A DNA stretch of 35,976 nucleotides from a virus. Each line of letters starts with the position of its first letter. Position 1 is the first letter of the stretch. A model generated the notes under the pieces. The model ran no database searches. It was not told the DNA's origin and saw only the letters and a program-made list of their open reading frames with translations. Both the position numbers and the translations under genes were made by a program. This document shows positions 4,979-23,529 of the stretch, in pieces. The stretch lies in the IMG/VR virus record IMGVR_UViG_3300032118_000027, positions 1 through 35,976 of that record. One strand, given 5' to 3'.

Positions 4979-5014
4979 GGGTCTGTACTAAGTTGAATAG
5001 CGGATTACAGACCC
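4979..5014 (+). other. Inverted repeat immediately before a phage promoter
   Basis: GGGTCTGTA (4979-4987) pairs perfectly with TACAGACCC (5006-5014) across an 18-base loop. The right arm overlaps the first bases of the 17-bp promoter element at 5013. No T-tract follows, so this is not a classical terminator; it could be a transcript 3'-end structure or a protein-binding site. Confidence 0.6.
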
Positions 5015-5029
5015 CGTTAAATTAACCCT
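5013..5029 (+). promoter_or_regulatory. Candidate phage RNA polymerase promoter, copy 1
   Basis: CCCGTTAAATTAACCCT, identical over 17 bases to copies at 21201 and 23513. It is intergenic, 28 bases before the SSB start. The core GTTAA-A-TTAAC is an odd-length palindrome. Exact repetition in front of gene modules on the coding strand, in a genome that encodes its own T7-like polymerase, supports the reading; the start of transcription is not determined. Confidence 0.7.
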
Positions 5030-5057
5030 ATATACAATTCTTAATAAGAGACTGAAA

Positions 5058-5567
5058 ATGGCTATCATTAAAAACGTTCAAATATACTTCGCCAAACTTA
5101 ACCCAAATCGTCCAAACCCAAAATTCAACAAGAAGAATCCTACGTGGGAACTTCAATTGAGAACTTCAGACAAAGTACAAAAAGCTGAATGGGAAAAACT
5201 TGGATTGGCGGTTAAAGCTGTAATACCTGAAGAGGGAGCACCGTATTATCGTGTGAATCTCAAAAAGAAAAGTATCAAAGAAGATGGTTCGCCATCTTCA
5301 GTGGTCAGTGTGATTGACGGTAAACTCAAACCCATAGATCCAGATACAATCGGAAATGGGTCGGTTGCGAACATACGTATATTTCAATACGAATACACGA
5401 ATGAAGGTAAGAAGGGGATAGCGTCAGTTCTTATGGCGGTTCAACTCACTAAACATTTAGTATATACAGCTCCTCCTCGTGATGATGACTTCGAAGAAAC
5501 GGAGACTGAAGCAATCGAGATGAGCGCCAATGATAACAAGAAGCCTTTTAATGATGATGATTTCTAA
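5058..5567 (+). CDS. Single-stranded DNA-binding protein, T7 gp2.5-like
   Basis: A 169-residue protein with an OB-fold-like basic and aromatic body (residues about 1-135, including KNPTWELQLRTSDK and YRVNLKKKS) and a strongly acidic tail ending in KPFNDDDF. The acidic C-terminus closed by phenylalanine is the hallmark of T7 gp2.5, where it contacts the DNA polymerase and the primase-helicase. It is shorter than gp2.5 (232 residues). The gene stands alone between a candidate phage promoter and a terminator, which suits a protein needed in stoichiometric amounts at replication forks. The assignment rests on architecture and context rather than a full alignment. Confidence 0.8.
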   Translation: MAIIKNVQIYFAKLNPNRPNPKFNKKNPTWELQLRTSDKVQKAEWEKLGLAVKAVIPEEGAPYYRVNLKKKSIKEDGSPSSVVSVIDGKLKPIDPDTIGNGSVANIRIFQYEYTNEGKKGIASVLMAVQLTKHLVYTAPPRDDDFEETETEAIEMSANDNKKPFNDDDF

Positions 5568-5576
5568 ATAGAACCC

Positions 5577-5607
5577 AAGGCCACCTTCCGAGGTGGCCTT
5601 TATTTGC
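5577..5607 (+). terminator. Terminator after SSB
   Basis: A perfect 10-bp stem, 5577-5586 with 5591-5600, with loop TCCG, followed by a short weak T-rich stretch (TATTTG). It starts 9 bases after the SSB stop. The short T-tract suggests partial termination, allowing some read-through into the replication genes. Confidence 0.75.
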
Positions 5608-5624
5608 AACTGAGTGGAGAAAAC

Positions 5625-5798
5625 ATGACATCCGAAAAATTGAAAGAAACAAGAATGAAAATCGCCTACAACATCATGCAAGGCTTCGCTGCTTCCGGCA
5701 ATGATTTTGATGAAGACTTTTTTGAAAAAGAAGTGGAATTCGCCTACAAACTTGCTGATGAAATTCTCAAACAAGGAGGATATCCGAATGTACTATAA
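5625..5798 (+). CDS. Small helical phage protein with AYxxADE motif
   Basis: A 57-residue protein whose ATG at 5625 follows a GGAGA site; an upstream in-frame TTG lies in the terminator and is not needed. It shares a pattern with the protein at 19668: a start helix, a short M-Q-G-x-x-A-S-G/D segment, then FAYKLADEILKQ. Such short proteins recur in tailed phages, sometimes in several copies, without a known function. Its stop overlaps the next start. Confidence 0.65.
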   Translation: MTSEKLKETRMKIAYNIMQGFAASGNDFDEDFFEKEVEFAYKLADEILKQGGYPNVL

Positions 5799-6522
5799 CC
5801 TATATAATAGAGAACGAGTATGTGTAGATACTCGTTGGGATTCACCTTACGAACATTTAAGTAAGTATGATGTTTCAAATGGTCGTTATGTCAAGATTGT
5901 GGCATCTGACGATACACAGATAAGTCTCTTTTCGTTGGATGATTTAATCGGATATCGTGATTCCATAGCACGTGCCGCAACTTGGCACAAAGATGTGAAA
6001 CCGCCTGAAGAGTTAACTTTCGGTGAAAAGATATCAGAATCGGATATCAAACTCTTGGAGCAACGCGTTAAAGATAGTGATGCATTTGTGGAAACCGCAA
6101 GAAGACTGAAAGAGCTCCCACCATTCACTTGTAATCCCGGTCTCGCTCAAAGCAAACAACAAAGGGAACAGTTCGAAAGCAAAGATGTTGATGCGCAGCT
6201 GGGTGAAACCGTGGCCTCGGTCTTTGATCCCATATTTTCAAGAAAGAAAGACCCCGTGAAACCGGATCACTACAAAGAGTATATGCCTGGAATGCAATGG
6301 TTGGAAGCCATGCAACATCTGCCACGTTTCAGGAACAATCCTGAGGCTTTCAAAGGAGCTGTGGAACTTCAAGTTCGTAAGTATCTCGACAGAAACGGTA
6401 AAGACGAAGAATTGCAAGAGTTGTCCAAAGCCCTATGGTATCTAAGATTCCTTGTGGCTTACATTAAGAACGGCGATAAGCCGATTAAACATACAGACAT
6501 TACCTCAATCTTGGGAGAATAA
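5788..6522 (+). CDS. DUF3310 protein, related to T7 gp1.7 nucleotide kinase
   Basis: A 244-residue protein; ATG 5788 follows AAGGAGG directly and overlaps the previous gene by 11 bases. The C-terminal 75 residues carry the DUF3310 pattern: DPVKPDHYKEYMPGMQWLEA, then AVELQVRKYLDRNGK, then DELQELSKALWYLRFLV-like sequence. T7 gp1.7, a nucleotide kinase, belongs to this domain family. The N-terminal half (YYNLYNRERVCVDTRWDSP and a helical region) is of unknown role. No Walker motif is visible, which agrees with gp1.7 being an unusual kinase. Kinase activity here is inference from family and from its place among nucleotide-metabolism genes. Confidence 0.7.
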   Translation: MYYNLYNRERVCVDTRWDSPYEHLSKYDVSNGRYVKIVASDDTQISLFSLDDLIGYRDSIARAATWHKDVKPPEELTFGEKISESDIKLLEQRVKDSDAFVETARRLKELPPFTCNPGLAQSKQQREQFESKDVDAQLGETVASVFDPIFSRKKDPVKPDHYKEYMPGMQWLEAMQHLPRFRNNPEAFKGAVELQVRKYLDRNGKDEELQELSKALWYLRFLVAYIKNGDKPIKHTDITSILGE

Positions 6523-6523
6523 A

Positions 6524-6895
6524 ATGACACCATTAACAGAAGCTCCAAAAACGGGTGTACCGAACTTCAACATACCTACCAGTATGGCCACGGCACTCAC
6601 AACACCTTACGGTACTGCTCCGGGAATAATGGCAATCAACCACACGATCTCGGCAATCAACCACACGATCTCGGTAATCCAAGTCAGATACAGCGGTTCC
6701 GACTCGAACTACACATATCTCTACCCTTTAACCGAAAAGATCGACATCGGAGATTTTGTGGTCGTCAGAGCGAGAAAAATACTGACTTTGGCTAAGGTGA
6801 CTGCGATAGGTAACGGCGACCTTCTTGACCCAAATGCCACTTTTAAATACTTGAGTGTAATTGACAGAGTGGATCTTTCAAGAGAAGGTAAATAA
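6524..6895 (+). CDS. Hypothetical protein with tandem heptapeptide duplication
   Basis: A 123-residue protein starting at ATG 6524, directly after the DUF3310 stop. Residues 37-43 and 44-50 are the same heptapeptide (AINHTIS), the product of an exact 21-bp tandem duplication. The C-terminal half (YTYLYPLTEKIDIGDFVVVR, then AKVTAIG) resembles the small beta-barrel seen at the N-terminus of PriA and in many short phage proteins; that is a weak similarity. Its stop TAA shares a base with the DNA polymerase ATG. It could be an accessory replication factor, but function is unknown. Confidence 0.6.
   Translation: MTPLTEAPKTGVPNFNIPTSMATALTTPYGTAPGIMAINHTISAINHTISVIQVRYSGSDSNYTYLYPLTEKIDIGDFVVVRARKILTLAKVTAIGNGDLLDPNATFKYLSVIDRVDLSREGK
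6632..6673 (+). repeat. Exact 21-bp tandem duplication within a coding region
   Basis: Two identical adjacent 21-base units (6632-6652 and 6653-6673), in frame, followed by a diverged partial third unit. The perfect identity suggests a recent slippage duplication. Confidence 0.9.
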
Positions 6896-8763
6896 TGTCA
6901 AGGTACATGTTCGACATCGAGACGGATGACTTGCTCAAAAATGTCACCAAACAGTGGATCCTGTATACCATAGACCTTGACAGCGGCGAAAAACGGCACT
7001 GGCTGGACGGTGACCTAGGCTGGAAAAAAGTCCTATCAGAGGCGACGCTTTTGGTGGGACATAACATTTGCAATTTTGATTTGATGGTTTTGGAGAAGTT
7101 GTTCAATTTTATTCCGTCCAAACATACGAAGATTCACGACACACTTATCCTCTCTCAGGTGTTGGACTATAAACGGTTTGGCACGCTGGGTCATGGTTTG
7201 GCCACTTGGGGCTTGTCACTGGACTATCCGAAAGGAGATTACGATGACTGGTCTCATTACAGTGAAGAGATGTTGAAGTATTGCGAACGAGATTGTGACC
7301 TGAATGAAAAGGTATACAGAATCTTAATTGCTGAGTTGAACGAAAAGAAAGAGAAATCACCCAAGCTGATCCAATACATTAAGGCGGAACATGCGGCGAC
7401 GACATGGGTAGGCAGAGCGAGTCTGTACGGTTGGCCTTTCGATTTGAAAGCTGCTCATGACTTGTTTGATACACTACAAGGTGAGATGGATAACGCATAC
7501 AACATACTCAATGAAAGATTGGGTTTGAAAGTTGTGGCGAAAGATAAATGCAAAGGTATCGTCACAACCAAAAAACCTAAATGGACAAAGATGGGTTTTT
7601 ATGATGCTCACACATCAAATTGGTTCGGAATTGATCCGTGTTCAGGTTTCGAAGATGAAGAGAGAATGGTGGAAGGGCCGTACTCTCGTGTGGAGATAGT
7701 TCCACTCAAGCTTTCTTCGGTCACCGATGTCAAGACATTCCTTTTCAGACACGGTTGGGTTCCCACGGAATTCAACTTCAAGATGTGTGAGTTGACAAGA
7801 AAGAAAAAGAAAACATCACCCAAGATTACTGAAGACAGTTTGGAATTTTTGGGCGGTGACGGCAAGATCTACACAGACTATCTTACATCCAAAGCTAGAT
7901 TCAGCATCCTCAAAACTTGGATTGAGAATACAGATGAAAACGGCAATCTGCACGGTGACTGTATGGTCATCGGCACACCCAGTATGAGAGCGCGTCACAG
8001 TATTATTGTGAATGTTCCTTCGGGTGACAGTAAATGGGGGCCGGAAATGCGGAAGTTGTTTCGATGCAAAGAGGGATGGAAGCTTGTGGGTTGTGACTCA
8101 GCGGGTAATCAAGCTCGTGGCTTGGCTCATTATTTGAATGATGAGGGTTTCACAAAAACACTACTGGAGGGTGACATACATCAGTACAATGCGGATACAC
8201 TCACGGCTGTGTTAAAAGGTATGGGCAACAAAACTGTAGTGTCAAGACCTCAAGCAAAGAGAATCTTATATGCTTTCTTATTCGGAGCCAGTGGTGGAAA
8301 ACTCTGGTCATACATATTTGGAACAATAAATGCCAGCGAAGGCAAAAAACTTAAAGATGGGTTCACTCGAGCCGTGCCTGGATTTAAAAACCTATTAGAT
8401 AAATTGGAGAGACTGTATGACGCTACTTCAGAGCGTGGAAGCGGTTATATCACTTCTATTGCTGGTAATCGCATTTATGTGGATTCTCTACATAAGCTTC
8501 TCGTATATCTATTGCAATCTTGTGAGAAAGTTACGTGTGCTTCGGCTGTCATGCTCACAATGGAGAGATTGGAAGAAGCCTGTATACCGTATATGCCTTG
8601 CATTTTTTACCACGATGAGTTTCAGTTTATGGTACCTGAAGCGTTTGCGGATAAAGCTGTGGAGATAGGTATATCGGGATTTAAAGAAGGTCCGAAATTG
8701 TTCGGAGTGAATATAATGGATGGAAGCGGAAGCTTCGGAGATAATTGGTATGACACACATTGA
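6895..8763 (+). CDS. DNA polymerase, family A (T7-like)
   Basis: The replicative polymerase, 622 residues (T7 gp5 has 704). Exonuclease motifs: I, FDIETDDLL (Asp7, Glu9); II, GHNICNFDLMVL (Asp62); III, YCERDCDLNEKVY. Polymerase motifs: A, VGCDSAGNQARGLAHY (Asp401); B, SRPQAKRILYAFLFGASGG; C, FYHDEFQFM (His573, Asp574). It ends NWYDTH, matching T7 NWAICH including the terminal histidine. Between exonuclease and palm, a segment from about residue 212 to 275 (LGLKVVAKDKC, then FGIDPCSGFEDEE, then GPYSRVEIVPLK) occupies the place of T7's thioredoxin-binding insert and ends with a matching APYTPVE-like stretch. It overlaps the preceding stop by one base. Confidence 0.95.
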   Translation: MSRYMFDIETDDLLKNVTKQWILYTIDLDSGEKRHWLDGDLGWKKVLSEATLLVGHNICNFDLMVLEKLFNFIPSKHTKIHDTLILSQVLDYKRFGTLGHGLATWGLSLDYPKGDYDDWSHYSEEMLKYCERDCDLNEKVYRILIAELNEKKEKSPKLIQYIKAEHAATTWVGRASLYGWPFDLKAAHDLFDTLQGEMDNAYNILNERLGLKVVAKDKCKGIVTTKKPKWTKMGFYDAHTSNWFGIDPCSGFEDEERMVEGPYSRVEIVPLKLSSVTDVKTFLFRHGWVPTEFNFKMCELTRKKKKTSPKITEDSLEFLGGDGKIYTDYLTSKARFSILKTWIENTDENGNLHGDCMVIGTPSMRARHSIIVNVPSGDSKWGPEMRKLFRCKEGWKLVGCDSAGNQARGLAHYLNDEGFTKTLLEGDIHQYNADTLTAVLKGMGNKTVVSRPQAKRILYAFLFGASGGKLWSYIFGTINASEGKKLKDGFTRAVPGFKNLLDKLERLYDATSERGSGYITSIAGNRIYVDSLHKLLVYLLQSCEKVTCASAVMLTMERLEEACIPYMPCIFYHDEFQFMVPEAFADKAVEIGISGFKEGPKLFGVNIMDGSGSFGDNWYDTH

Positions 8764-8772
8764 TGGGTTGAT

Positions 8773-8913
8773 ATGATTGATTGGTTAATTAAAGTGGCAC
8801 TGTGGTGTTTGGAAGCGGAAACAGACACACTCAAAAAACATGCACAAGTAGAATATTTCCGTAACATGAGACGTGAAAGAGCAAGATCTTATTTAAAAAG
8901 GACAAGGTATTGA
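8773..8913 (+). CDS. Small basic protein, 46 aa
   Basis: A 46-residue frame just after the polymerase: an amphipathic or hydrophobic start (MIDWLIKVALWCLEAE) followed by a very basic helix (RNMRRERARSYLKRTRY). A GGGTTG sequence upstream could serve as a weak ribosome site. Its stop overlaps the TTG start of the next gene by four bases, consistent with translational coupling. Possibly membrane- or nucleic-acid-associated; family not recognised. Confidence 0.55.
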   Translation: MIDWLIKVALWCLEAETDTLKKHAQVEYFRNMRRERARSYLKRTRY

Positions 8914-9467
8914 TCACAACAAGATTTTCAAATGTATTCGATGAAGAAACCTTTAAAGAGTTGGTGCAATACTTTAAAAATAAAAAGTATCGTAGTCTTT
9001 TGCGTGAAGAGGGTACACACATGTACTATTGTGAAATACCTGAAGAATATCAAAAAGTATTGACAAAGACATTGGAAACACATTTCCAAAAAGAAGTGGA
9101 GATATTACATACCTTCGGTAGAATAAACACTTCAAAACACGACACGGTGTTTCGCATACATGCTGACGGTAAGGTAAGAGGCGTACAACCGACGGTGGCT
9201 GCATTGTTTTATTTGGAAACAAGTGACAATTCAGGTACTGCATTTTATAAACATGAGCTAAAAGGCGATAAAGCAATTGAAGGCGAATATGCGATATTTT
9301 CCGAAGATGACGGCAAGTGGAGCATGACTGAAAAACATTATGAAGAAGCCAATAGTATGTTAGTATACGATTCATTGTTATTTCATGCCAGATTTCCTTG
9401 GGTGTCAAGAGGCACCAATACAAAAAACGGTAGAATAGTTTTGGTAAATTTTTTAAAAACAATATAA
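8910..9467 (+). CDS. 2-oxoglutarate/Fe(II)-dependent oxygenase
   Basis: A 185-residue protein starting at TTG, overlapping the previous stop, with AAGGACAAGG upstream. It has the marks of the prolyl-hydroxylase-like 2OG-Fe(II) oxygenase fold: iron ligands HxD at His84/Asp86 in FRIHADG; the strand-turn PTVAALFYLETSDNSGTAF; a distal iron ligand His159 in LLFHARFPW; and Arg175 in GRIVLVNFL for the 2-oxoglutarate carboxylate. Such oxygenases are common in marine phages. The substrate (protein residue, nucleotide or base) cannot be read from the sequence. Its place between DNA polymerase and nucleotide-pool genes makes a DNA- or nucleotide-linked role plausible but unproven. Confidence 0.8.
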   Translation: MITTRFSNVFDEETFKELVQYFKNKKYRSLLREEGTHMYYCEIPEEYQKVLTKTLETHFQKEVEILHTFGRINTSKHDTVFRIHADGKVRGVQPTVAALFYLETSDNSGTAFYKHELKGDKAIEGEYAIFSEDDGKWSMTEKHYEEANSMLVYDSLLFHARFPWVSRGTNTKNGRIVLVNFLKTI

Positions 9468-9483
9468 TCCTGGAGTAGTCAAT

Positions 9484-9723
9484 ATGACAAAAGTCGAAGA
9501 ACATTTGATTGAACAAATTCACGATCTCAGAGAAGCCTCATTCAATCGTATCTGTATATTGGAGGATAAGTATCGAAGAGATATCTCATTAGCACAAACC
9601 AAATACAATGTATCGAAAATTGCTCTGATCTTTATGACAATTGTGGCCAGCGCCGCCATTCTAATACCGCAGGAAACAGTCCTGAACGCATTCAATGGCA
9701 TGATGAAGGGGTTTTATGAATAA
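9484..9723 (+). CDS. Coiled-coil plus transmembrane small protein
   Basis: A 79-residue protein with a GGAGTAG ribosome site. Residues 1-42 form a charged helix with coiled-coil-like spacing (EEHLIEQIHDLREASFN); residues about 43-62 (SKIALIFMTIVASAAILIP) are a single transmembrane helix, with a short tail after it. Probably a tail-anchored inner-membrane protein with its N-terminus in the cytoplasm. It overlaps the MazG-like gene by 8 bases. No family recognised. Confidence 0.65.
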   Translation: MTKVEEHLIEQIHDLREASFNRICILEDKYRRDISLAQTKYNVSKIALIFMTIVASAAILIPQETVLNAFNGMMKGFYE

Positions 9724-10012
9724 AGAACAATATCTCTTGAACAGTCTATCTGAAGAGTTGGGCGAAGTACAGCAGTGTGTCGGCAAGTGTTTGAGATTCG
9801 GAACACACCATCAGTATGAAAAATACGATGAAACAAACCTTGAAGCTTTAGTTCGTGAAATGAATGATGTACACGCGACACTCATGGCAATGGAAGTCTT
9901 ATGTGATTTGAAAATTCATCTTGATATTGATAGGGTTGACCAGAAATACGAGAGAATACTGAGTATGATGAGAGTATCCGAAGAGTTGGGTATATTTGAC
10001 GGAAAGTATTGA
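9716..10012 (+). CDS. MazG-like nucleotide pyrophosphohydrolase
   Basis: A 98-residue, all-helical protein with the MazG/all-alpha NTP pyrophosphohydrolase signature: EELGE at residues 13-17 and EMND at 48-51, the metal-binding acidic clusters EExxE and ExxD. Enzymes of this family hydrolyse nucleoside triphosphates to monophosphates, and phage forms are thought to cleanse or reshape the dNTP or alarmone pool. The middle segment (QQCVGKCLRFG) matches the usual spacing. It is coupled to both neighbours by short overlaps. Substrate not deducible. Confidence 0.75.
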   Translation: MNKEQYLLNSLSEELGEVQQCVGKCLRFGTHHQYEKYDETNLEALVREMNDVHATLMAMEVLCDLKIHLDIDRVDQKYERILSMMRVSEELGIFDGKY

Positions 10013-10821
10013 TGATAGCAATTATTGACGGTGATATCCTCGCGTATTCGGCATGCAAACCGAGATGGCAAGATAAAGCTGAAAACGGATGTGTGACAGT
10101 GGCGCTCGATGAGAACGGTAATCGTAAACCTTTTGAATTTACCAAGAAAGAAGATCAATTGTATCTTCAACAGTGTTGGAAAAATTTGAAGAAAGATTTG
10201 GATAAACTTTTAGATACAGTATTTTGTACTGAATACATAATGGCTGTGAAGGGTGAAAATAATTTCAGAGACCTTGTATATCATGATTACAAAGCTAACC
10301 GAAAAAACAACCCACAAAATCACAATAGATTTGTACCCTCAATGCGAAAACTCATGGCCAAGGAAGGTTATGCTGTTGAAGCTAATGGCAGAGAAGCTGA
10401 TGACCTCGTCAGGATTTGGGCGGAAGAATGCAGAATGTCCGGAATTGATTTCATTGTCTGCTCCATCGACAAGGATCTCGAATGTATTCCGGGTAAACAC
10501 TACCTGATGCACAAAGATGAGGTGTTGGATATTTCGGAAGAATACGCCATGAGGTTCTATTATGAACAACTTCTCAAAGGCGATCCAACTGATAACATTC
10601 CAGGTGTTCCGAGGATCGGTAATGTCAAGGCTAAGAAACTGCTGGCTGATTATGACACAGAAGAAGGATACCAGCAGGTTGTATTGAATGCTTATATCGA
10701 AGCCTACGGAGATGAGTGGCACCACATGTTGCTCATAAATGGCAAGATGATACATATCCAACGAGATGTTGGAGATTACTTTTGTTTTGATGAATGGCCG
10801 TTGGCTCAGGAACTCTTATGA
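10012..10821 (+). CDS. 5'-3' exonuclease (T7 gp6-like / FEN family)
   Basis: A 269-residue nuclease. ATG 10012 overlaps the preceding TGA; an upstream TTG at 10009 adds only one residue. PIN/FEN metal-binding motifs in order: IIDGDILAY (Asp6, Asp8), then YKANRK of the helical arch (residues about 92-97), EADDLVRIWAEE, CSIDKDLECIPG, and the helix-hairpin-helix region KGDPTDNIPGVPRIGNVKAK that grips DNA. T7 gp6 (300 residues) removes RNA primers and degrades host DNA; the same role in primer removal, mature-end formation and nucleotide recycling is inferred here. Confidence 0.9.
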   Translation: MIAIIDGDILAYSACKPRWQDKAENGCVTVALDENGNRKPFEFTKKEDQLYLQQCWKNLKKDLDKLLDTVFCTEYIMAVKGENNFRDLVYHDYKANRKNNPQNHNRFVPSMRKLMAKEGYAVEANGREADDLVRIWAEECRMSGIDFIVCSIDKDLECIPGKHYLMHKDEVLDISEEYAMRFYYEQLLKGDPTDNIPGVPRIGNVKAKKLLADYDTEEGYQQVVLNAYIEAYGDEWHHMLLINGKMIHIQRDVGDYFCFDEWPLAQELL

Positions 10822-10910
10822 TTGAAAATATACTTTTGTCGATGATCATCTTTTGTGCTTTTTCACTGGGAGTTTGTGCAGGTGCAATCTATGAGCTGAC
10901 TCGATGTTAA
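10818..10910 (+). CDS. Tiny single-span membrane protein
   Basis: A 30-residue frame overlapping the exonuclease end by four bases (ATGA) and the next gene by seven. It is almost entirely one hydrophobic helix (residues 4-24), with a C-terminal EL-TRC. The tight overlap on both sides favours it being translated. Function unknown. Confidence 0.5.
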   Translation: MIENILLSMIIFCAFSLGVCAGAIYELTRC

Positions 10911-11377: not shown

Positions 11378-11555
11378 AAAGAGTTACACATGGTCACAAA
11401 TTGCTTGGAGTTTATTAGGTTTTCTGTTAATGTTCTACTCAGGTTATGTTATATTGTCTTCGGTTTCTTGGCCTTTCCCTCCGGTTGATTTATTCATCTT
11501 AGCATCATGCTGTTTGGTGTTAAGTATTGCATTCAAACCAAACGAACCTGTTTAA
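11367..11555 (+). CDS. Small two-span membrane protein
   Basis: A 62-residue protein overlapping the previous gene by 11 bases. Two hydrophobic helices (about residues 12-32 and 39-56) flank a SVSWPFPPVD turn; the N-terminus is charged (MKDKKSY). This topology suggests an inner-membrane hairpin with both ends in the cytoplasm. It ends one base before the primase-helicase ATG, so it is co-translated with replication genes. Function unknown. Confidence 0.6.
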   Translation: MKDKKSYTWSQIAWSLLGFLLMFYSGYVILSSVSWPFPPVDLFILASCCLVLSIAFKPNEPV

Positions 11556-11556
11556 T

Positions 11557-16709: not shown

Positions 16710-18023
16710 ATGAACAGTACAGAAATATTAGAAGCATTACAATTCATCGCAGATGACAGTAGTAAAATCAATAAGTCTAAATACCTAAAAAACTTTCTTG
16801 AAGATGCGGAGTTTAGAAGAGTAATTTGTTTGGCTTACGATCCATTTGTAACATTCGGTATTAAAGAAACAGCTAAGCCATTTGCTCTGGGTGTTCCTTT
16901 AGATTTCACGGAGCAAACATTCTCGTTGTTTCACGATCTCTCGACAAGAACGTTGTCGGGAAATGCCGCCAAAGATGCTGTGTTCAATCATATAATTTAC
17001 CTAAATGTACCTTCCCAAGTCTTATTTCAGATGATTCTAAATAAGAACCTTGGAGCTGGTTTCGATGTGAAAAGCATCAACAAAGCCATGCCTGGATTGG
17101 TGCCTCATTTCGCTTACATGCGTTGCTCCTTGCCCAAGGAAGTTAAATTGGAAACTTGGGATTGGGCGGGCGGTATATTCTCTCAAGAAAAGATGGACGG
17201 TCTATTTATTAATGTGACCACAACCAAAGGTGCTGTATCATTTCATACGAGGAAAGGTCAAGAGTTTCCAAAAGAAGAGTTGTTTGAGCTATCTGAAGAC
17301 TTCATATCTCTGGGCTTTCATGGACATCAATACCACGGAGAAATGCTGGTCAGGCGTGACGGTAAATTGCTTTCGAGAAAAGAGGGTAATGGTATATTGA
17401 ACAGTATTTTGAAAGGCGGTAAATTCAAAGAAGGTGATGAAGCTGTTATCGTGGTTTGGGATTGCATAAAGTTGTCGACGTTGACGGGTGACGTTGATGA
17501 GCCGTACAGTACGAGATTTATCAAATGCAGATCGGCGTTGAGACAATCCGATTTAATTAGTGCAGTCAAATATAAGATGTGCTACTCAATTCAAGAGTCT
17601 CAAGAGCATTTTGACCTGATGCGGAAATTGGGTAAAGAAGGCACAGTGGTTAAAGAATTTAACGGCTACTGGAAAGATGGTACTTCGAAATCTCAAGTTA
17701 AAATGAAAGATACTAAATACTCGGATCTCAGAGTGATTTCAAAACTGAATGGCACGGGGAAGAATGTGTCCACATTCGGTTCTCTGTATTGTATTTCGGA
17801 AGACGGCAAGTTGGGAGTGACCGTCTCGGGTTTCACCGACGAACAACGAGGTTGTATTTTCGACGAATGGGAAGATTGGAAGAATTGCATAGTCACCGTA
17901 GCTTTCAATGAAGTAATAACCAGTGTCAAGAGTGAAACGTACTCGATGTTCCTACCTAGATTCATTGAGCGACGCTATGACTTGACTGAAGCTGACATGA
18001 TCGAAAGAATACTTATGATGTAA
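16710..18023 (+). CDS. ATP-dependent DNA ligase
   Basis: A 437-residue ligase with a GAGGCA site upstream. Nucleotidyltransferase motifs: I, EKMDGLF with the adenylated Lys161; Ia-like segment FHTRKGQEF; III, HGEMLVRRDGK; IV, EGTVVKEF; V, SQVKMKDTKYSDL. The C-terminal OB-fold region (about 340-437) includes VTVSGFTDEQRG. It is somewhat longer than T7 gp1.3 (359 residues), with an extra helical N-terminal region of about 120 residues before motif I. It seals nicks left after primer removal on the lagging strand. A strong terminator follows at once, ending the replication operon. Confidence 0.95.
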   Translation: MNSTEILEALQFIADDSSKINKSKYLKNFLEDAEFRRVICLAYDPFVTFGIKETAKPFALGVPLDFTEQTFSLFHDLSTRTLSGNAAKDAVFNHIIYLNVPSQVLFQMILNKNLGAGFDVKSINKAMPGLVPHFAYMRCSLPKEVKLETWDWAGGIFSQEKMDGLFINVTTTKGAVSFHTRKGQEFPKEELFELSEDFISLGFHGHQYHGEMLVRRDGKLLSRKEGNGILNSILKGGKFKEGDEAVIVVWDCIKLSTLTGDVDEPYSTRFIKCRSALRQSDLISAVKYKMCYSIQESQEHFDLMRKLGKEGTVVKEFNGYWKDGTSKSQVKMKDTKYSDLRVISKLNGTGKNVSTFGSLYCISEDGKLGVTVSGFTDEQRGCIFDEWEDWKNCIVTVAFNEVITSVKSETYSMFLPRFIERRYDLTEADMIERILMM

Positions 18024-18027
18024 CTTA

Positions 18028-18052
18028 AGCCCTCTTCGGAGGGCTCTTTTTA
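18028..18052 (+). terminator. Terminator after DNA ligase (UUCG loop)
   Basis: A 7-bp stem, AGCCCTC (18028-18034) with GAGGGCT (18039-18045), TTCG tetraloop, then CTTTTTATT. It is a compact and typical intrinsic terminator, four bases after the ligase stop. Confidence 0.9.
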
Positions 18053-18061
18053 TTGGAGACA

Positions 18062-18109
18062 ATGCTGCAAGCATTTATAGATAGAATAGCAAAAATCGAA
18101 AAACTTTAA
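18062..18109 (+). CDS. Possible 15-aa peptide
   Basis: A very short frame (MLQAFIDRIAKIEKL) with a GGAGAC site six bases before its ATG. It is an amphipathic helix in outline. It follows the ligase terminator and precedes the next block of small genes. Reported only because of the good ribosome site; it may be chance. Confidence 0.25.
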   Translation: MLQAFIDRIAKIEKL

Positions 18110-18126
18110 CTGTTGGGGCGATTATT

Positions 18127-18357
18127 ATGAAAGAGACAATACAATTTAAAGGTACAGAATTGATCGTGGATTACGATTATGTCGCTGCGTTTTCAGGATC
18201 TCAATTCGATCCTCCGCATTCGGATTCGGTTGAGATAAATGAGATAAAGCTGGGAGATTCGAAAGTGGATCTGATTGAGCTTTTGGAGGATTACTTGGGT
18301 GACATCGAGATTGCCATCTTTGAAACTCGTTCAGATTGGATGGGAATGCAACCATGA
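18127..18357 (+). CDS. Acidic hypothetical protein, 76 aa
   Basis: A 76-residue acidic protein, the first of a run of short overlapping genes. A GGGGCG sequence ten bases upstream may be the ribosome site. It begins with two strands (TIQFKGTELIVDYDYV) and has an acidic helix (SKVDLIELLEDYLGDIEIAIF). It shares with the next gene a start in which a short strand and a V/D-Y motif alternate (ELIVDYDY and TVVVDGYDVECEYE), so the two may be distant paralogues. Function unknown. Confidence 0.6.
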   Translation: MKETIQFKGTELIVDYDYVAAFSGSQFDPPHSDSVEINEIKLGDSKVDLIELLEDYLGDIEIAIFETRSDWMGMQP

Positions 18358-18557
18358 GTGAATATCGAACAACGGTAGTGGTTGATGGTTATGATGTTGA
18401 ATGTGAATATGAGACAATTCATTATGAATGGCCTTATTATGAAGTTAATATTTTCAGGATGGATAATAAACAATATCACGAATTTCCCGAAAGCACGCTC
18501 AGAGATGTGAGAGAGCAAATTAAAAATGGTATATCGGACTTAGCATATGAAAATTAG
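18354..18557 (+). CDS. Hypothetical protein, 67 aa
   Basis: A 67-residue protein whose ATG overlaps the previous stop by four bases (ATGA). It starts with strands (YRTTVVVDGYDVECEYETI), is rich in tyrosine and acidic residues, and ends in a helix (STLRDVREQIKNGISDLAYE). Such a beta-then-helix outline recalls small phage proteins that bind host factors, but no family is recognised. It overlaps the next gene by 11 bases. Confidence 0.6.
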   Translation: MSEYRTTVVVDGYDVECEYETIHYEWPYYEVNIFRMDNKQYHEFPESTLRDVREQIKNGISDLAYEN

Positions 18558-18747
18558 ATTTATAACTGAAGATGTAAAAGAAATAAAACACAGGGTGATC
18601 GACATTATCTTAACGGCGAATCAATATGATCAATTGGATTTAGGGAGGTACGAAAAGATAAGCAGTATCCGGCTAATACCTAATGATGTTAGAGAGGCCG
18701 TCTGCGCAACGTCGGATCACCCCATCACTCCTTTAATGGACAACTAA
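18547..18747 (+). CDS. Hypothetical protein, 66 aa
   Basis: A 66-residue protein starting inside the end of the previous gene (CATATGAAAATTAG). It has alternating strands and helices (KIRFITEDVKEIKHRVIDII, then SSIRLIPNDVREAV), possibly a small alpha/beta fold. It ends 55 bases before the next ATG; that gap includes a GGAG ribosome site for the following gene. Function unknown. Confidence 0.55.
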   Translation: MKIRFITEDVKEIKHRVIDIILTANQYDQLDLGRYEKISSIRLIPNDVREAVCATSDHPITPLMDN

Positions 18748-18802
18748 AAACGTGGCGAGAGCCTGTGGCTACGGTCACAGGTTTCACACCTTGGAGATAG
18801 AA

Positions 18803-18973
18803 ATGGACTACAAAAAAGGGATGAAATTCAAAGCGAAGGTAACACATGAAGTAATTATGTTAGTTGGAAAGAAAGGAGATTGGTGGAATATTATACGTGT
18901 AGATGGAAAAAAGAAAACCCACAAGCTATCTAGACAAACACTCAGGAGAGGTTATGAGAGAACTGAGCAATGA
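18803..18973 (+). CDS. Small basic, SH3-like hypothetical protein
   Basis: A 56-residue, lysine-rich protein. ATG 18803 follows TTGGAGATAGA; an upstream GTG at 18752 in frame is less likely. Short strands (MKFKAKVTHEVIMLVGKKGD, then WWNIIRVDG) suggest a small beta-barrel of SH3 or KOW type, often nucleic-acid-binding. It overlaps the next gene by 20 bases. Function unknown. Confidence 0.55.
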   Translation: MDYKKGMKFKAKVTHEVIMLVGKKGDWWNIIRVDGKKKTHKLSRQTLRRGYERTEQ

Positions 18974-19331
18974 TGAATGCCATGAATTGTTTTTGAATAA
19001 TTCATTGGGACTTTACGATACAATACGTTTAATATATAAGGAAGGTTATGATGAAAGAAGTGAAGAGTTGGATGCAAACATTGACGGAACTGAAAGCGAC
19101 GTTGAAAGCGGAAGCACCGAAGACAGTCCCATCGAAGAGACAGTTAAAACGACAACAATGGAAAAATTGAATGAAAAGGAGGTTTCTGGATTACTACATG
19201 TCGATAGCGCAACTATCAGCGGAGATGTCGTATGCGAAGAAGTTGAAGGTGGGGGCGATAATCGTGAAGGATCAGAAGATCATATCGATGAGCTGGAATG
19301 GGACACCACCGGGTTGGGACAACAATTGTGA
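18954..19331 (+). CDS. Hypothetical protein; only the first ~35 residues look real
   Basis: A 125-residue frame with a good GGAGAGG site before ATG 18954. Residues 1-35 (ELSNDECHELFLNNSLGLYD and the helix after it) look like a normal small protein. The rest becomes an acidic, low-complexity stretch that overlaps both the basic 19048-19170 frame and the first 161 bases of the dCMP deaminase, and is probably the shadow of those genes. Either the true product is short and continues by a frameshift into the 19048 frame, or the overlap is real but extreme. Confidence 0.35.
   Translation: MRELSNDECHELFLNNSLGLYDTIRLIYKEGYDERSEELDANIDGTESDVESGSTEDSPIEETVKTTTMEKLNEKEVSGLLHVDSATISGDVVCEEVEGGGDNREGSEDHIDELEWDTTGLGQQL
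19048..19170 (+). CDS. Small basic protein, 39-40 aa
   Basis: ATG at 19048 or 19051 follows GGAAGG, and the frame ends in TGA directly before the deaminase ATG (TGAATG). The product is strongly basic (LKATLKAEAPKTVPSKRQLK, then RQQWKN) and helical, resembling a small nucleic-acid-binding protein. Its ribosome site and its exact junction with the next gene support it over the overlapping acidic frame. No family recognised. Confidence 0.5.
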   Translation: MMKEVKSWMQTLTELKATLKAEAPKTVPSKRQLKRQQWKN

Positions 19332-19671
19332 GGATAAGGAATGGACACCCGAAGGGCCTTTTTATTTTGAAGTTGATTATCCTTTCGTGGAGTACTCAGA
19401 CGATGATACTGATGCGGCTATAGGTAGGTACAGGCACAAAACAAAGCCCGAAGTAATTCACGCGGAGTCTCACGCCATTACCAAGTTGGCTCGAGGTGCT
19501 GAATCATCGGAGGGCGCGATCATGTTCTGCACTCACTCACCTTGTGTGGATTGTGCAAAATTGATATCTCAAGCGGGAATTCAAACGCTGTATTACAAAG
19601 AACCATTTAAGAACCTTGATGGGCTTAATTTATTAATTACGATAGGCGTTACTGTGGAGATATTAACATGA
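19171..19671 (+). CDS. Deoxycytidylate (dCMP) deaminase
   Basis: A 166-residue zinc-dependent deaminase that turns dCMP into dUMP, the substrate for thymidylate synthesis. Motifs: VGAIIVKDQKIISMSWNGTP, the zinc/catalytic HAESHAI (His-Ala-Glu), and SPCVDCAKLI, the PCxxC zinc ligands. Between them, residues about 56-90 form an acidic and aromatic insert, as in T4-type dCMP deaminases (193 residues). The start is fixed by TGA-ATG contact with the previous gene. It completes, with NrdA/NrdB and MazG, a nucleotide-pool set; no thymidylate synthase was seen in this window. Confidence 0.9.
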   Translation: MKRRFLDYYMSIAQLSAEMSYAKKLKVGAIIVKDQKIISMSWNGTPPGWDNNCEDKEWTPEGPFYFEVDYPFVEYSDDDTDAAIGRYRHKTKPEVIHAESHAITKLARGAESSEGAIMFCTHSPCVDCAKLISQAGIQTLYYKEPFKNLDGLNLLITIGVTVEILT

Positions 19672-19847
19672 ATACACCAATAACGATGAGTTTAAGAGAT
19701 TGGTTCGCAAGTATGGCTATGCAGGGTTTATTAGCTTCTGATGTAAACACACATTGGGACGCTGACGAAATTGCAGATTTAGCCTACAAACAGGCAGATG
19801 AAATGATCAAAGAAAGACATAGGGATCGTTCAAATGGACAAATGTAG
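19668..19847 (+). CDS. Small helical phage protein with AYxxADE motif, second copy
   Basis: A 59-residue protein overlapping the deaminase stop by four bases. It has the pattern SLRDWFASMAMQGLLASD, then IADLAYKQADEMIKER, typical of a short tailed-phage family, and matches the outline of the protein at 5625 (FAYKLADEILKQ). The two are plausible paralogues, though diverged. Its function in any phage is not known to me. It overlaps the next gene by 14 bases. Confidence 0.7.
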   Translation: MNTPITMSLRDWFASMAMQGLLASDVNTHWDADEIADLAYKQADEMIKERHRDRSNGQM

Positions 19848-19998
19848 TTTTTGTAGTGAAGATAAAGTGGAAGGTGTGACGCATGTGAAGGCGGGTGACC
19901 TTGCCATATGTCGTCATTGTATAGTGAAATCGAAACAACTGATACGTGCCACAAAGTTCGTCAATATGAAAATTCTGAATATACGGGAACCTTTATGA
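19834..19998 (+). CDS. ClpX-type zinc-finger mini-protein
   Basis: A 54-residue protein with two CxxC pairs: CSFC at residues 4-7 and CRHC at 26-29, separated by a segment with AGDLAI. The order C-S-F-C, then A-G-x-x-x-I-C-x-x-C-I, is that of the ClpX N-terminal zinc-binding domain (Pfam zf-C4_ClpX type), which in ClpX binds adaptors and substrates. No ATPase domain follows, so this is a free-standing domain. It could bind host ClpXP adaptors or nucleic acid; both are inference. It overlaps both neighbours. Confidence 0.65.
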   Translation: MDKCSFCSEDKVEGVTHVKAGDLAICRHCIVKSKQLIRATKFVNMKILNIREPL

Positions 19999-20525
19999 GT
20001 GAAGAAAGAGAGTTATTGGAACGTTTATACGACTGGGATAGTGCCCCAGTCATTTGCGAACTTAATGGGTATAAATGGGTCTTAGGCCCAGAACATGAAA
20101 AAAAATTGAACTGGCAAGATGCCGTCGAATGGTGTCACTCGGTAGGCGGTGAATTGCCACCTAGAGACGTTTTGTTGCAAGCTTATTTTAAGTTGGAGCT
20201 AAAAAGTAGGTTCGCTAGTAACGACTACTGGAGTTTTTTGGAGAACAATAGCAACAACGCGTGGTACCAGAACTTCAACAATGACAACCAGTACAACAAT
20301 AAGAAATACACATTGCCTGTTAGGGCAGTGAGGGTTTATAAAATATTGGCTGACACTAAAGAACTACTCGCCCAACCTGAACTACAAAAACGTGAGCCTG
20401 TGAGTGATGAAGAGCTCAATATATCAACTCAAGGCATGTCTGAGTTTAGCAGTGATATGTTCAAAGCCGGTTTCAGGTCGGCCGAACGGTATTATTTAGA
20501 ATTAATAAGCGGAGAGATAGAATGA
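19995..20525 (+). CDS. DUF1566/C-type-lectin-like protein with asparagine-rich loop
   Basis: A 176-residue protein starting at ATG 19995, overlapping the zinc-finger stop. Residues about 25-117 follow the DUF1566/Lcl pattern of a C-type-lectin fold: LNWQDAVEWCHSVGGELPPR, YWSFLE, NAWYQNF and VRAVRVYK. Residues 82-104 are unusually rich in Asn encoded by AAC and AAT, as in the variable regions of diversity-generating retroelements. No reverse transcriptase or second template copy was seen, so retargeting is not claimed. A helical C-terminal part (residues 117-176) is of unknown role. It may be a ligand-binding or virion-associated protein. Confidence 0.7.
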   Translation: MSEERELLERLYDWDSAPVICELNGYKWVLGPEHEKKLNWQDAVEWCHSVGGELPPRDVLLQAYFKLELKSRFASNDYWSFLENNSNNAWYQNFNNDNQYNNKKYTLPVRAVRVYKILADTKELLAQPELQKREPVSDEELNISTQGMSEFSSDMFKAGFRSAERYYLELISGEIE

Positions 20526-20692
20526 ATGAAGCATTTAAAAAAGAATTGAAAAGGAACGCAGATATAAGTTTTGAATATCATAAGAGTTCAGATCTATACA
20601 AAGTATCCGGAGAGAAAATAATTATTTCAGATAAAAACTTTGTCGTGTTGGCGGAGGTAGAGGGCTATTGCATGGACGCGAGTAATTTATGA
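20522..20692 (+). CDS. Hypothetical protein, 56 aa
   Basis: A 56-residue protein starting within the previous stop (ATGA). It has a basic helical start (NEAFKKELKRNADISFEYHK) followed by three probable strands (LYKVSG, KIIISD, FVVLAEVEGY), suggesting a small mixed fold. It overlaps the next ATG by four bases. No family recognised. Confidence 0.6.
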   Translation: MNEAFKKELKRNADISFEYHKSSDLYKVSGEKIIISDKNFVVLAEVEGYCMDASNL

Positions 20693-20859
20693 GTGACGGT
20701 GGAAAGGGTTCTAAAAGAATACCGTCTCAGGTTTCACGCCAACAGGTCTCGGATAACTGGGATCTGATATGGGGTAAGAAAGCTGAGCCGATCAACAACG
20801 ATACAGTGTCGGAAAATGAATCTTATGAGCAATACAAGGTGAGTGATAATGATAAATGA
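20689..20859 (+). CDS. Small phage protein of the GGKGS...WDxIxGKK type
   Basis: A 56-residue protein beginning MSDGGKGSKRIPSQVSRQQV and continuing SDNWDLIWGKK. Short proteins with a glycine/serine-rich basic start and a W-D-x-I-x-G-K motif are widespread in T7-like and other podoviruses, without known function. The tail is acidic and probably disordered. Coupled by overlaps to both neighbours. Confidence 0.65.
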   Translation: MSDGGKGSKRIPSQVSRQQVSDNWDLIWGKKAEPINNDTVSENESYEQYKVSDNDK

Positions 20860-21199
20860 GTGCACGGCGAGTGATCTCGCATTTATGATCGGAGAATTTA
20901 ATGATTATTTCGTTGGAGCGTATGAATCCCAAGAAGCAATCAGTGAAACTGAATTCGGTATTGCTGAGGGAGTTTATAATGACTATAAAGAATACTGTGA
21001 ACAAAATCAGATTGTGTGGGATTATGAGTTCAAGTTAAATAATTCAGAGTACATGAAAAAGATCTTCAAGAAAGCCCTCTCTCGAATTTTGGGACAACCT
21101 GAGTCTCCGAACCTGGAAGAGGAAATTCAGTACGCAGAAGAGAATCCTGATGCCAACTCGACCGCGTGGCTCACACCCGTGCCACCGCTCACCAATTGA
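20849..21199 (+). CDS. Acidic hypothetical protein, 116 aa
   Basis: A 116-residue acidic protein; ATG 20849 overlaps the previous gene by 11 bases, with AAGGTGAG upstream. It has helices in residues 5-75 (SDLAFMIGEFNDYFVGAYES, then YNDYKEYCEQN) and a proline-rich end (TAWLTPVPPLTN). It is the last gene before the second phage promoter, whose element starts two bases after its stop. Function unknown. Confidence 0.6.
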   Translation: MINECTASDLAFMIGEFNDYFVGAYESQEAISETEFGIAEGVYNDYKEYCEQNQIVWDYEFKLNNSEYMKKIFKKALSRILGQPESPNLEEEIQYAEENPDANSTAWLTPVPPLTN

Positions 21200-21200
21200 A

Positions 21201-21217
21201 CCCGTTAAATTAACCCT
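21201..21217 (+). promoter_or_regulatory. Candidate phage RNA polymerase promoter, copy 2
   Basis: The same 17 bases as copies 1 and 3 (CCCGTTAAATTAACCCT). The leader from here to the ATG at 21366 is about 150 bases and includes a CCGTAT/ATACGG hairpin near 21249-21268. The gene that follows has its own terminator. Confidence 0.7.
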
Positions 21218-21365
21218 CAAGAAAAAATGAGGACGAAATTTGAACGTTACCGTATGCGGAAAATACGGCATCTTATCTGATAACCATAAAAAGTTATTAT
21301 AATTAAATGTGACTTTCTCAATGGAGGATAACCTAATCATATCAAACATAATTTAAGGATTCAAA

Positions 21366-21935
21366 ATGTCATTAGAAATCAGCCAAGTCTTTTCAGTAAA
21401 CGGTATCAACTTTGAAACTAAAGCTGAAGCACTAGATTACATACGTCGTCCAAAGATCTCTGAAGCTTTAACAGCTTTAACAGGTCAGGGTAATGAAGAA
21501 CTTGTAGTATGGCTATTGGACAATCAAGAAAGCGTTGAGACTGCTTTCGAGAGCGGCACGGTCAAACGTGTCACAAAGGCTGAAAATGCCAAATTGATTA
21601 AGGCTTTGGATGCGATCGTTGCATCAGGTAATAAAGACTTCTCATTCATTATTGAGAATGTTGATGCAGTTAAAGATTCATTCAGATGGCCTTCGGTCAA
21701 AAGAATGACGGATGAAGAAAAGAGTCTCACCGCACGTAACACATTGATCGCAGCTTCGGGTAACGAAGAACTTGCGGACTGGGTTATCACAAACAAAACT
21801 GCCGTGATTGAAGCATATCAAGCGGGTATTGTTAAACGTGAGGTGAGTAAGAATGCTTCAGACGCATTAGCTGCTTATCAAGCTAAGAAGAAAGCAGAAA
21901 AAGAAGCAGCTTTAGTATTAACTAAAAAAGCTTAA
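21366..21935 (+). CDS. Three-repeat protein with its own promoter and terminator
   Basis: A 189-residue protein with an AAGGA ribosome site. It contains three related units of about 40-45 residues, each with the order A-x-x-G-N-(E/K)-(E/D)-(L/F), a tryptophan or aromatic, an N-x-x-x-V or similar helix, and ending V-K-R: near residues 33-69, 77-116 and 122-158. The C-terminus is a lysine/alanine-rich helix. No known family was recognised. A candidate phage promoter 150 bases upstream and a terminator 63 bases downstream make a one-gene unit, like SSB, so high expression is likely. It could be a scaffold, a host-factor binder or a DNA-associated protein. Confidence 0.75.
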   Translation: MSLEISQVFSVNGINFETKAEALDYIRRPKISEALTALTGQGNEELVVWLLDNQESVETAFESGTVKRVTKAENAKLIKALDAIVASGNKDFSFIIENVDAVKDSFRWPSVKRMTDEEKSLTARNTLIAASGNEELADWVITNKTAVIEAYQAGIVKREVSKNASDALAAYQAKKKAEKEAALVLTKKA

Positions 21936-21997
21936 AGAAATAAGACCTGAGCAATTCGAGCCTCTCACTCGTATGTCCTTAAACTGCTCACCCAATT

Positions 21998-22020
21998 CCT
22001 CACACAAGTGGGGATTTTTT
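21998..22020 (+). terminator. Terminator after the three-repeat protein
   Basis: CCTCAC (21998-22003) pairs with GTGGGG (22008-22013), with one G.U pair and an ACAA loop, followed by ATTTTTTT. It is a short but clear intrinsic terminator. Confidence 0.75.
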
Positions 22021-22044
22021 TATGACTTGAACAAGGTGTTAAAA

Positions 22045-22188
22045 ATGAAAAAGTTTAAAATATTTGAAGCTGCAACGTACATCGCATTGGAAGAGATCGT
22101 TAATTATCATCTCAGCTTTGGCTGGGAGATTCAGGGTAGTGTTTGTTTCTTTCAAGACAAATACACCATTGCGATGGTGAAGTCATGA
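22045..22188 (+). CDS. Small hypothetical protein, 47 aa
   Basis: A 47-residue protein; ATG 22045 follows CAAGGTG at good distance. An in-frame ATG at 21973 lies ahead of the terminator and is rejected as the start. It begins with a basic strand and helix (KKFKIFEAATYIALEEIVNY) and includes a GWEIQGSVCFF segment, resembling the short phage proteins of DUF1737 type in outline only. It overlaps the next start by four bases. Confidence 0.5.
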   Translation: MKKFKIFEAATYIALEEIVNYHLSFGWEIQGSVCFFQDKYTIAMVKS

Positions 22189-22340
22189 TTATTATATCGA
22201 AATTTATAAGCGAGCTAAAAAGAGATAAAGATCTTTTAAGGTATCTCATATCGGGCGAGAGGGTTTTATTCGAAGGGATCATATTCGCCCTCGATAAAGG
22301 TCAACTTACAACAACCAATAAATTCGGAGAAAACCTATGA
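22185..22340 (+). CDS. Small hypothetical protein, 51 aa
   Basis: A 51-residue frame starting at ATG 22185 within the previous stop. A helical first half (ISKFISELKRDKDLLRYLIS) is followed by a hydrophobic segment (VLFEGIIFALDKG). It overlaps the tiny frame at 22337. Function unknown; the coupling argues for translation. Confidence 0.5.
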   Translation: MIIISKFISELKRDKDLLRYLISGERVLFEGIIFALDKGQLTTTNKFGENL

Positions 22341-22405
22341 CTGGTGGATATGATACAGTTTACCAAAAAGAAAAGGTGAAGGTCGAGACGACTTCATGCA
22401 TGTGA
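22337..22405 (+). CDS. Possible 22-aa peptide
   Basis: A short frame (MTGGYDTVYQKEKVKVETTS and two more residues) that overlaps the previous stop by four bases. It could be a tiny gene of the operon or part of a gene broken by a frameshift into the frame at 22396. Weak support. Confidence 0.3.
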   Translation: MTGGYDTVYQKEKVKVETTSCM

Positions 22406-22524
22406 CACCGAGTGTCACAATTTTAAGCGACAGTCCATGGATCAGAGGTGTAATCACTTCTGATTTTAAACAGTTAGTGTTTAACCTGAAAAACAGGTTT
22501 GTTAACTCTGCACAACAAACCTAA
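22396..22524 (+). CDS. Possible 42-aa protein
   Basis: A 42-residue frame overlapping the end of the preceding tiny frame by 10 bases (MHVTPSVTILSDSPWIRGVI and further residues). No clear ribosome site. It has mixed strand-like composition with a basic end. It may be the continuation of the 22337 frame. Low confidence. Confidence 0.35.
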   Translation: MHVTPSVTILSDSPWIRGVITSDFKQLVFNLKNRFVNSAQQT

Positions 22525-22615
22525 GAAGAAAGAGCCACGAGAAGAATATATCGAAGCTTGGGTTAACATAACAAAACAGGGTGGCTTAGGTCACCCTTTT
22601 TTTTTTTCTTTTTGA
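22499..22615 (+). CDS. Possible 38-aa protein running through a terminator
   Basis: A TTG-started frame with a basic core (HNKPKKKEPREEYIEAWVNI) that reads on through the terminator hairpin and T-tract, ending in phenylalanines. The central part looks protein-like, and small phage genes sometimes end inside a terminator, but the start is uncertain and the overlap with 22396-22524 is unexplained. Confidence 0.3.
   Translation: MLTLHNKPKKKEPREEYIEAWVNITKQGGLGHPFFFSF
22579..22607 (+). terminator. Terminator with long T-tract
   Basis: GGGTGG (22579-22584) pairs with TCACCC (22591-22596), one G.U pair, loop CTTAGG, followed directly by about eleven T. It ends the small-gene run before the 22625 gene. 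Confidence 0.85.
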
Positions 22616-22624
22616 GGTAGTATT

Positions 22625-23404
22625 ATGATGGATATAGAAGTTGGACAAAAATGGGTAACTAGTAGTAATAATATTGTTTTAATTAAGTGTATTGACTCGA
22701 CTGAAGGATTAACATTCCCGATATATGGGGAAGACATCAATACAGGTGAAGGCGTATCGTACTTGCATACCGGAAGGTACTATTCAACAGATTCTAAGAG
22801 TGATTGGGATCTAATCTCTCTTATCGAAGAGAAGGAGGAACTGTTCAAAATCGGAGATGTATGGTTGAACGGTGAAGGTACTGAAGTTACTATAGTTGAA
22901 AGCAACGACACAGGTTTATCAGGGACGGAAGGTGGGAGAAATTGGCACTATCATCTTGATGGTAGATTTATAACGTTCGGTTGTGCCAACTCTTATCAAC
23001 ACAAAAGAAATTTGGTGTCAAAAAAAGAAGAATTCAAAACACAAGCGGAGATATGGCAATATCTCCTTGAAGGTAATGTTGTACACATGAAGGGGTGTCC
23101 TCAGTATTATGCCATGATTGAAGGTTCCCTTCACTTAGTCAACAAGAGAGGTGAAGTTGAAGCTGAGTTTGGTCAGGTAATGTCCTTTTTATCTCCGGAA
23201 AATTGGGAGAAGGTTGATCCAATCTGGATTCCAAGTAAGACAACACTGTGCTTGGTGCCACACCCTTCGTCTTCCGTCGGCAGAGTGGTGGTGGTGACTC
23301 ATTACAACCATCAAAAAAAGAAGTACGTTAATGAGATTTCAGGAGAGGAGTGGGATGAAGTAACACCCATGACTTTGTCTCAAGCAGCTGAACTCTTGAA
23401 TTAA
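22625..23404 (+). CDS. Hypothetical protein, 259 aa, repeated beta-rich modules
   Basis: A 259-residue protein with a TTGAGGTAG ribosome site. The sequence is rich in short strands, with tryptophan and tyrosine at module ends, and two segments look alike: residues 4-65 (VGQKWVTSSNNIVLIKCID and its continuation to SDWDLI) and 74-125 (IGDVWLNGEGTEVTIVESND and its continuation). They share a G-x-x-W start and a V/L-x-I core, suggesting duplicated SH3- or KOW-like barrels. The third part (140-259) differs. It stands alone between two terminators just before the packaging module. No family recognised. Confidence 0.65.
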   Translation: MMDIEVGQKWVTSSNNIVLIKCIDSTEGLTFPIYGEDINTGEGVSYLHTGRYYSTDSKSDWDLISLIEEKEELFKIGDVWLNGEGTEVTIVESNDTGLSGTEGGRNWHYHLDGRFITFGCANSYQHKRNLVSKKEEFKTQAEIWQYLLEGNVVHMKGCPQYYAMIEGSLHLVNKRGEVEAEFGQVMSFLSPENWEKVDPIWIPSKTTLCLVPHPSSSVGRVVVVTHYNHQKKKYVNEISGEEWDEVTPMTLSQAAELLN

Positions 23405-23411
23405 TTGATTT

Positions 23412-23486
23412 CCACACTTCACTCATGATGTCCCTTCGGGGATGTTGTGGGTGAGGTGTGGATTAACACTTATTTTTTTTTCTTTT
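23412..23486 (+). terminator. Very long terminator hairpin (23 bp, UUCG loop)
   Basis: Arms 23412-23434 and 23439-23461 pair along all 23 positions if G.U pairs are allowed, with one internal A-A exception, closed by TTCG. A T-rich tract (23471-23486) follows after a 9-base spacer. It separates the accessory block from the packaging and virion genes. Confidence 0.85.
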
Positions 23487-23491
23487 TCGTG

Positions 23492-23497
23492 TATAAT
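23492..23497 (+). promoter_or_regulatory. Possible host-type -10 box
   Basis: TATAAT in an intergenic region, 16 bases before the third phage-type promoter. The upstream spacer is T-rich and no good -35 hexamer is visible. It could give host polymerase access to the packaging module, or be chance. Confidence 0.25.
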
Positions 23498-23512
23498 CCA
23501 GCTTAGTCGGAA

Positions 23513-23529
23513 CCCGTTAAATTAACCCT
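23513..23529 (+). promoter_or_regulatory. Candidate phage RNA polymerase promoter, copy 3
   Basis: The third exact copy of the 17-bp element, preceded as in copy 2 by GAA and followed by AAAGAC. It lies between a strong terminator and a 300-base leader ahead of the terminase genes, so it probably drives the late transcript. Confidence 0.7.

Follow-up and report, generated by a model that had tools for sequence, protein, structure and literature searches.

The promoters of phages T7, T3 and SP6 are ~20 nt long and recur as many near-identical, co-directional intergenic copies, matched by a phage polymerase of the T7 fold. They share an initiation core of the TATAG or TAAAGGG type. EM1 RNA polymerase, a T7-like enzyme of an elephant-dung phage derived from a metagenome, has promoters that were predicted and then confirmed in vitro (PMC9596486). 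Here we analysed a window of 35,976 bases, a single virus record, which contains a repeated element that resembles the T7, T3 and SP6 promoters in length, arrangement and matching polymerase, but lacks their initiation core. It also differs from the EM1 system, in which the promoter, TCAGAAGTCACACTATAA, is T7-like and the phage measures 41 kb (PMC9596486).

Two described phages are similar to the window phage. DSS3_VP1 (Naomviridae), a distantly related, cultured roseophage with dU-DNA, has a similar order of genes for polymerase, DNA polymerase, primase/helicase, RNR, terminase, PhoH, portal and head proteins. Its terminase large subunit (TerL) is 54% and its polymerase 37% identical to those of the window phage, and the specificity loop of its polymerase is 13 residues shorter than that of the present family. 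The 17-mer described below has no copy in DSS3_VP1. This genome carries a repeat of its own, ATAGG(G/T)(T/G)NCGTTAAAGAGGGG, in 13 forward and 0 reverse copies (TAGGKKVCGTTAAA); the repeat is unannotated in the records (L173/L174; for example, at record positions 2333, 7408, 19237 and 45926). The forms ATAGGGTGCGTTAAAGAGGGG and ATAGGTGACGTTAAAGAGGGG are intergenic and co-directional and have CGTTAAA in common with the present block, but they are SP6-like, with a probable G start. One variant, TAGGTGACGTTAAAGA, is closely like the SP6 promoter TAGGTGACACTATAG as printed in PMC9596486. By this analogy, the DSS3_VP1 repeats would anchor a promoter role for such repeats in the phage group. The second phage, EBPR siphovirus 1, is a partial genome from activated sludge with a terminase 57% identical to that of the window. 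It has three intergenic plus-strand variants, TCCGTTGAATTAACCCT, ACCGTTACATTAACCCA and ACCGTTATTTTAACCCA, at 2–4 mismatches from the 17-mer.

Scanning the window for the 17-mer CCCGTTAAATTAACCCT at ≤3 mismatches returned three sites, all exact and all on the plus strand (5013–5029, 21201–21217 and 23513–23529), and no others. All three are intergenic and point in the same direction as the genes. Shuffled windows averaged 0.05 matches and never reached three. The initial annotation had described exactly these three copies, found nowhere else in the window, and had called their chance recurrence negligible; both statements hold. Predicted promoter copy 1 (5011–5029, plus strand; 19-nt block ACCCCGTTAAATTAACCCT) lies 28 nt upstream of a gp2.5-like SSB gene (5058–5567, plus strand; PHROG 112, E = 8.8e-10), and an orthologous site precedes SSB in most relatives that bear the RNA polymerase. 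Predicted copy 2 (21199–21217, plus strand; AACCCGTTAAATTAACCCT) lies 148 nt upstream of the gene for a conserved 189-amino-acid three-repeat protein (21366–21935, plus strand), a position matched in 11 relatives. This protein is helical, is 44–60% identical among the homologues aligned, follows directly after a promoter copy in those 11 relatives, and has no Pfam, PHROG or fold match. Predicted copy 3 (23511–23529, plus strand; again AACCCGTTAAATTAACCCT) lies 300 nt upstream of a conserved 152-amino-acid ORF in the packaging module (23830–24288, plus strand). Homologues of this ORF, a candidate small terminase subunit, precede TerL in relatives, and TerL itself follows in the window (24463–25827, plus strand). 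Between the terminase and portal genes, a further ORF encodes collagen-like (GIQGIQGD)n repeats (26786–27079).

The element extends far beyond the window. In an IMG/VR scan, other viral contigs yielded at least 119 stretches with the exact 17-mer and one with the reversed word. Across 40 whole contigs, copies at ≤2 mismatches numbered 1 to 8 each and occupied a single strand per contig in 40/40, with 0 matches for the reversed control. An RNA polymerase match was found in 31 of the 40, including all contigs longer than 40 kb, at 57–72% identity; those with no match, and also G019 with one too weak to count, are fragments no longer than ~36 kb. An independent set of loci (1.31 Mb), fetched by related RNA polymerase alone and not by the motif, contained 87 coding-strand matches at ≤2 mismatches (27 exact, 46 with one change and 14 with two) versus 0 on the reverse strand. 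Among 28 more whole contigs, mostly chosen by polymerase, the standard form was confined to one strand in 21/21 contigs that have it and was absent from 7; control matches were 0. A genome-collection scan added 10 single matches, one of which (L283), on a contig as long as that of G037, is probably the same phage binned with a bacterium. Searchable open-access literature does not contain the 17-mer; GTTAAATTAAC occurs there in one paper, on an unrelated subject. Absence from the open-access literature is no proof of novelty.

About eight of the genomes examined gene by gene are near-complete. Six large relatives (G003, G005, G006, G007, G010 and G011) have copies at five common places: upstream of the pre-polymerase genes, ~3–9 kb ahead of the polymerase, and upstream of SSB, of the three-repeat protein, of the packaging/terminase module and of the capsid module. 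G037 and G040 occupy four of these places, the SSB copy alone being missing, and G002, which begins at the polymerase, carries additional copies but lacks one for the capsid module. The window holds the SSB, three-repeat and packaging places, while the other two fall to the left of base 1 and to the right of base 35,976. Further copies had been expected ahead of capsid and tail genes; relatives have them upstream of capsid genes, but none was seen upstream of tail genes. At some places, many relatives carry tandem copies spaced 64–156 bp apart, and the block stands ~28–300 nt ahead of the next gene start. Repeated intergenic copies, almost identical and oriented along the coding strand of the operons that they precede, are the arrangement of a promoter family.

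We examined 122 non-redundant sites, with near-copies removed, to define the conserved sequence. As these were collected at ≤2 mismatches, the true spread is somewhat wider, and SSB-linked sites located by gene position do display a wider spread than the mismatch-collected ones. The conserved block is A-N-CCCGTTAAATTAACCCT, a unit of 19 and not 17 nt: in 97% of the sites, A stands two positions ahead of the first C. Positions 1–6 and 10–16 of the 17-mer are nearly invariant; positions 7–9 and 17 vary. Over the 122 sites, no other position within 60 nt of the block is comparably conserved, no host −10/−35 element or TATAAT lies at a fixed distance from it, and no strong G preference appears at a fixed position downstream. 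The block is thus compact and free of host promoter elements, and a relative with 65% GC (G022) retains it. It ends in TTAACCCT, where the T7/T3/SP6 consensus has TATA or TAAA and then a G start (GGG or GA). The element had been described as unlike the T7 class, which is correct for the initiation core (no TATAGGG), with two qualifications: the relative's promoter is clearly SP6-like, and the T3 promoter (AATTAACCCTCACTAAAGGG, as printed in PMC9596486) opens with the 10 nt of AATTAACCCT. We judged this T3 identity to be probably chance, because the bases equivalent to T3 −7 to +6 are not conserved, the block ending where the specific core of T3 begins.

The window encodes a complete T7-family single-subunit RNA polymerase with palm, motif B and HDSFG motifs, on the plus strand. 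The first exon (1167–1909; PHROG 414 match) was aligned with intact relatives, giving an inferred ATG start at 1167 and an approximate splice site. It is followed by a group I intron core (1876–2106; Rfam RF00028, 71.6 bits, E = 2e-16) and, within the intron, a NUMOD4/HNH homing endonuclease gene (2134–2658). The second exon, listed as an ORF at 2676–4193 and beginning at ~2690, contains the palm, fingers and specificity loop (Pfam RNA_pol, E = 7.5e-66; relatives 57–72% identical). The spliced phage polymerase assumed in the initial annotation is real, and it is T7-like. It can be aligned with T7 RNAP, also across the specificity-loop region, and a model of a relative's polymerase best matches the T7 RNA polymerase–promoter complex, with modest confidence (pLDDT 71, loop low). 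In many relatives the gene is uninterrupted, with an ORF of ~750 amino acids. In others (G003, G009, G011, G014, G021, G031 and G036) it is broken elsewhere, at about residues 150 and 280 of the second exon; these differing positions suggest that introns have invaded the polymerase gene repeatedly.

Copies within a genome change together. Position 9 is C in every copy of G050 and of G057, and every copy of G042 has a final A. In one polymerase clade the copies are jointly altered to CCCGTTAAATTAATGAT: G044, G051 and G059 have CCCG(T/C)TAAATTAATGAT-type (TGAT-type) copies in place of the standard form, and those of G059 occupy the same five places. In a tree of 63 distinct polymerases, the enzymes of these three genomes form one branch (support 100/95). 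The branch also includes L237, whose copies changed otherwise, to CCCTGAAAATTAACCCT. Joint change following the polymerase was thus observed as one clade-level switch, with one further-diverged member inside the branch and one mixed genome outside it. The mixed genome, G060 (L267), combines CCCT-type with TGAT-type copies, which may be two promoter classes or a switch under way. No single specificity-loop residue tracks the TGAT change. The copies of a genome share lineage-specific bases. The simplest cause of their joint change would be a common trans-acting reader.

We propose that this reader is, very probably, the phage's own T7-like single-subunit RNA polymerase and that the element is its promoter. 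The strand bias, the five syntenic positions, the lineage-specific joint change and the lack of a fixed host −10/−35 all support the promoter family suggested at the outset. Whereas the sequence, strand, placement and conservation of the copies and their joint change within genomes and a polymerase clade are direct observations, we infer binding of the polymerase to the block, the start site and the timing, for which middle/late is the best reading. The host enzyme would transcribe the early genes, leading to production of the phage polymerase. This enzyme would bind the 19-nt block upstream of the five gene blocks, and rightward transcription would switch on the genes for replication (SSB), the three-repeat protein, packaging and the capsid.

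As the polymerase belongs to the core genes of the entire group, some other DNA-binding protein inherited along with it would also be compatible as the reader. A phage-coded transcription factor might use the near-palindromic element as an operator or activator box and steer host RNA polymerase; inherited with the polymerase, it would yield the same co-occurrence. The inverted repeat GTTAA-A-TTAAC and a TATAAT 21 nt upstream of copy 3 are in keeping with such a factor, which we nonetheless consider improbable. The lack of any −10 or −35 at a fixed distance speaks against it, as do the asymmetric outer bases (CCC/CCCT) and the fixed orientation. Moreover, the inverted repeat is not kept: 19 of the 122 sites alter position 7 or 8 in the left half, and the partner bases compensate in none. 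As the right half shows no corresponding change, selection does not act on the symmetry, and we rejected a dimeric operator site, which would place a symmetric constraint on both half-sites. The palindromic core, stressed as notable in the initial annotation, is, to judge from these sites, incidental.

For the phage polymerase, initiation would most likely occur at the AA|CCC junction (A12–C14 of the 17-mer), given the relative's SP6-like promoter and the variable bases; the DSS3_VP1 repeats suggest, by analogy, a start just after TTAA(A). Because position 14 may be C, T or A, a start at A12 or A13 is the better guess. The terminal CCCT would then be part of the RNA, with a 5′ hairpin at about a third of the sites. 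In 32% of sites versus 11% of shuffled ones, C14 or C15 opens a stem of at least 4 pairs, in most cases with a GGG further downstream; this fits transcripts beginning at or before C14. In the window, the last bases of copy 2 form part of a predicted 5′-leader hairpin, CCUCA..UGAGG (21215–21232, plus strand; −6.2 kcal/mol, z = −3.7). Such hairpins, beginning at CCC, and the location of the copies in coding-strand leaders might also indicate an element acting in RNA, either an endonuclease processing site or a leader signal in long transcripts. We regard this as very unlikely: the conserved block itself is under no pairing constraint, its distance to the next start varies, DSS3_VP1 has its SP6-like promoter repeat in like places, and a strong terminator directly precedes copy 3. 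This terminator-like hairpin with a T-run (23411–23480, hairpin 23411–23462, plus strand; −39.9 kcal/mol, z = −8.5) and another upstream of the polymerase gene (935–995; −27.3 kcal/mol) are both very strong and UUCG-capped. A terminator ahead of every copy is not general (6/63 sites versus 21/325 random places). T7-like promoters can double as origins, and copies near SSB and terminase, in tandem in many relatives, might suggest a replication or packaging signal instead of or besides a promoter, but about five co-directional places per genome, each opening a gene block, exceed what an origin or packaging would need and leave this hardly credible.

The promoter reading implies a new promoter family with its own consensus across a broad uncultured phage group, which the comparison of relatives supports well. 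More tentatively, and with chances that we place somewhat below even, it may also point to a class of single-subunit phage polymerases with a new specificity. Such a class would be marked by a compact promoter (about −13/−15 to +4), a start at A (or C) and not G, and a matched natural polymerase–promoter series in uncultured phages, including one clade with jointly switched promoter 3′ ends. The polymerase–promoter pair is defined by sequence and apparently orthogonal, and the series of 63 polymerases could reveal how a polymerase and its five promoters change specificity together. The block would allow transcription units to be read in metagenomic phages of the group, and the predicted DSS3_VP1 promoters become testable in a cultured phage. 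Some promoters (in L020, L041, L047, L054 and L088) have, ~24–29 nt downstream, a second block that has decayed, for example CCCCCTCAATTAACCCT.
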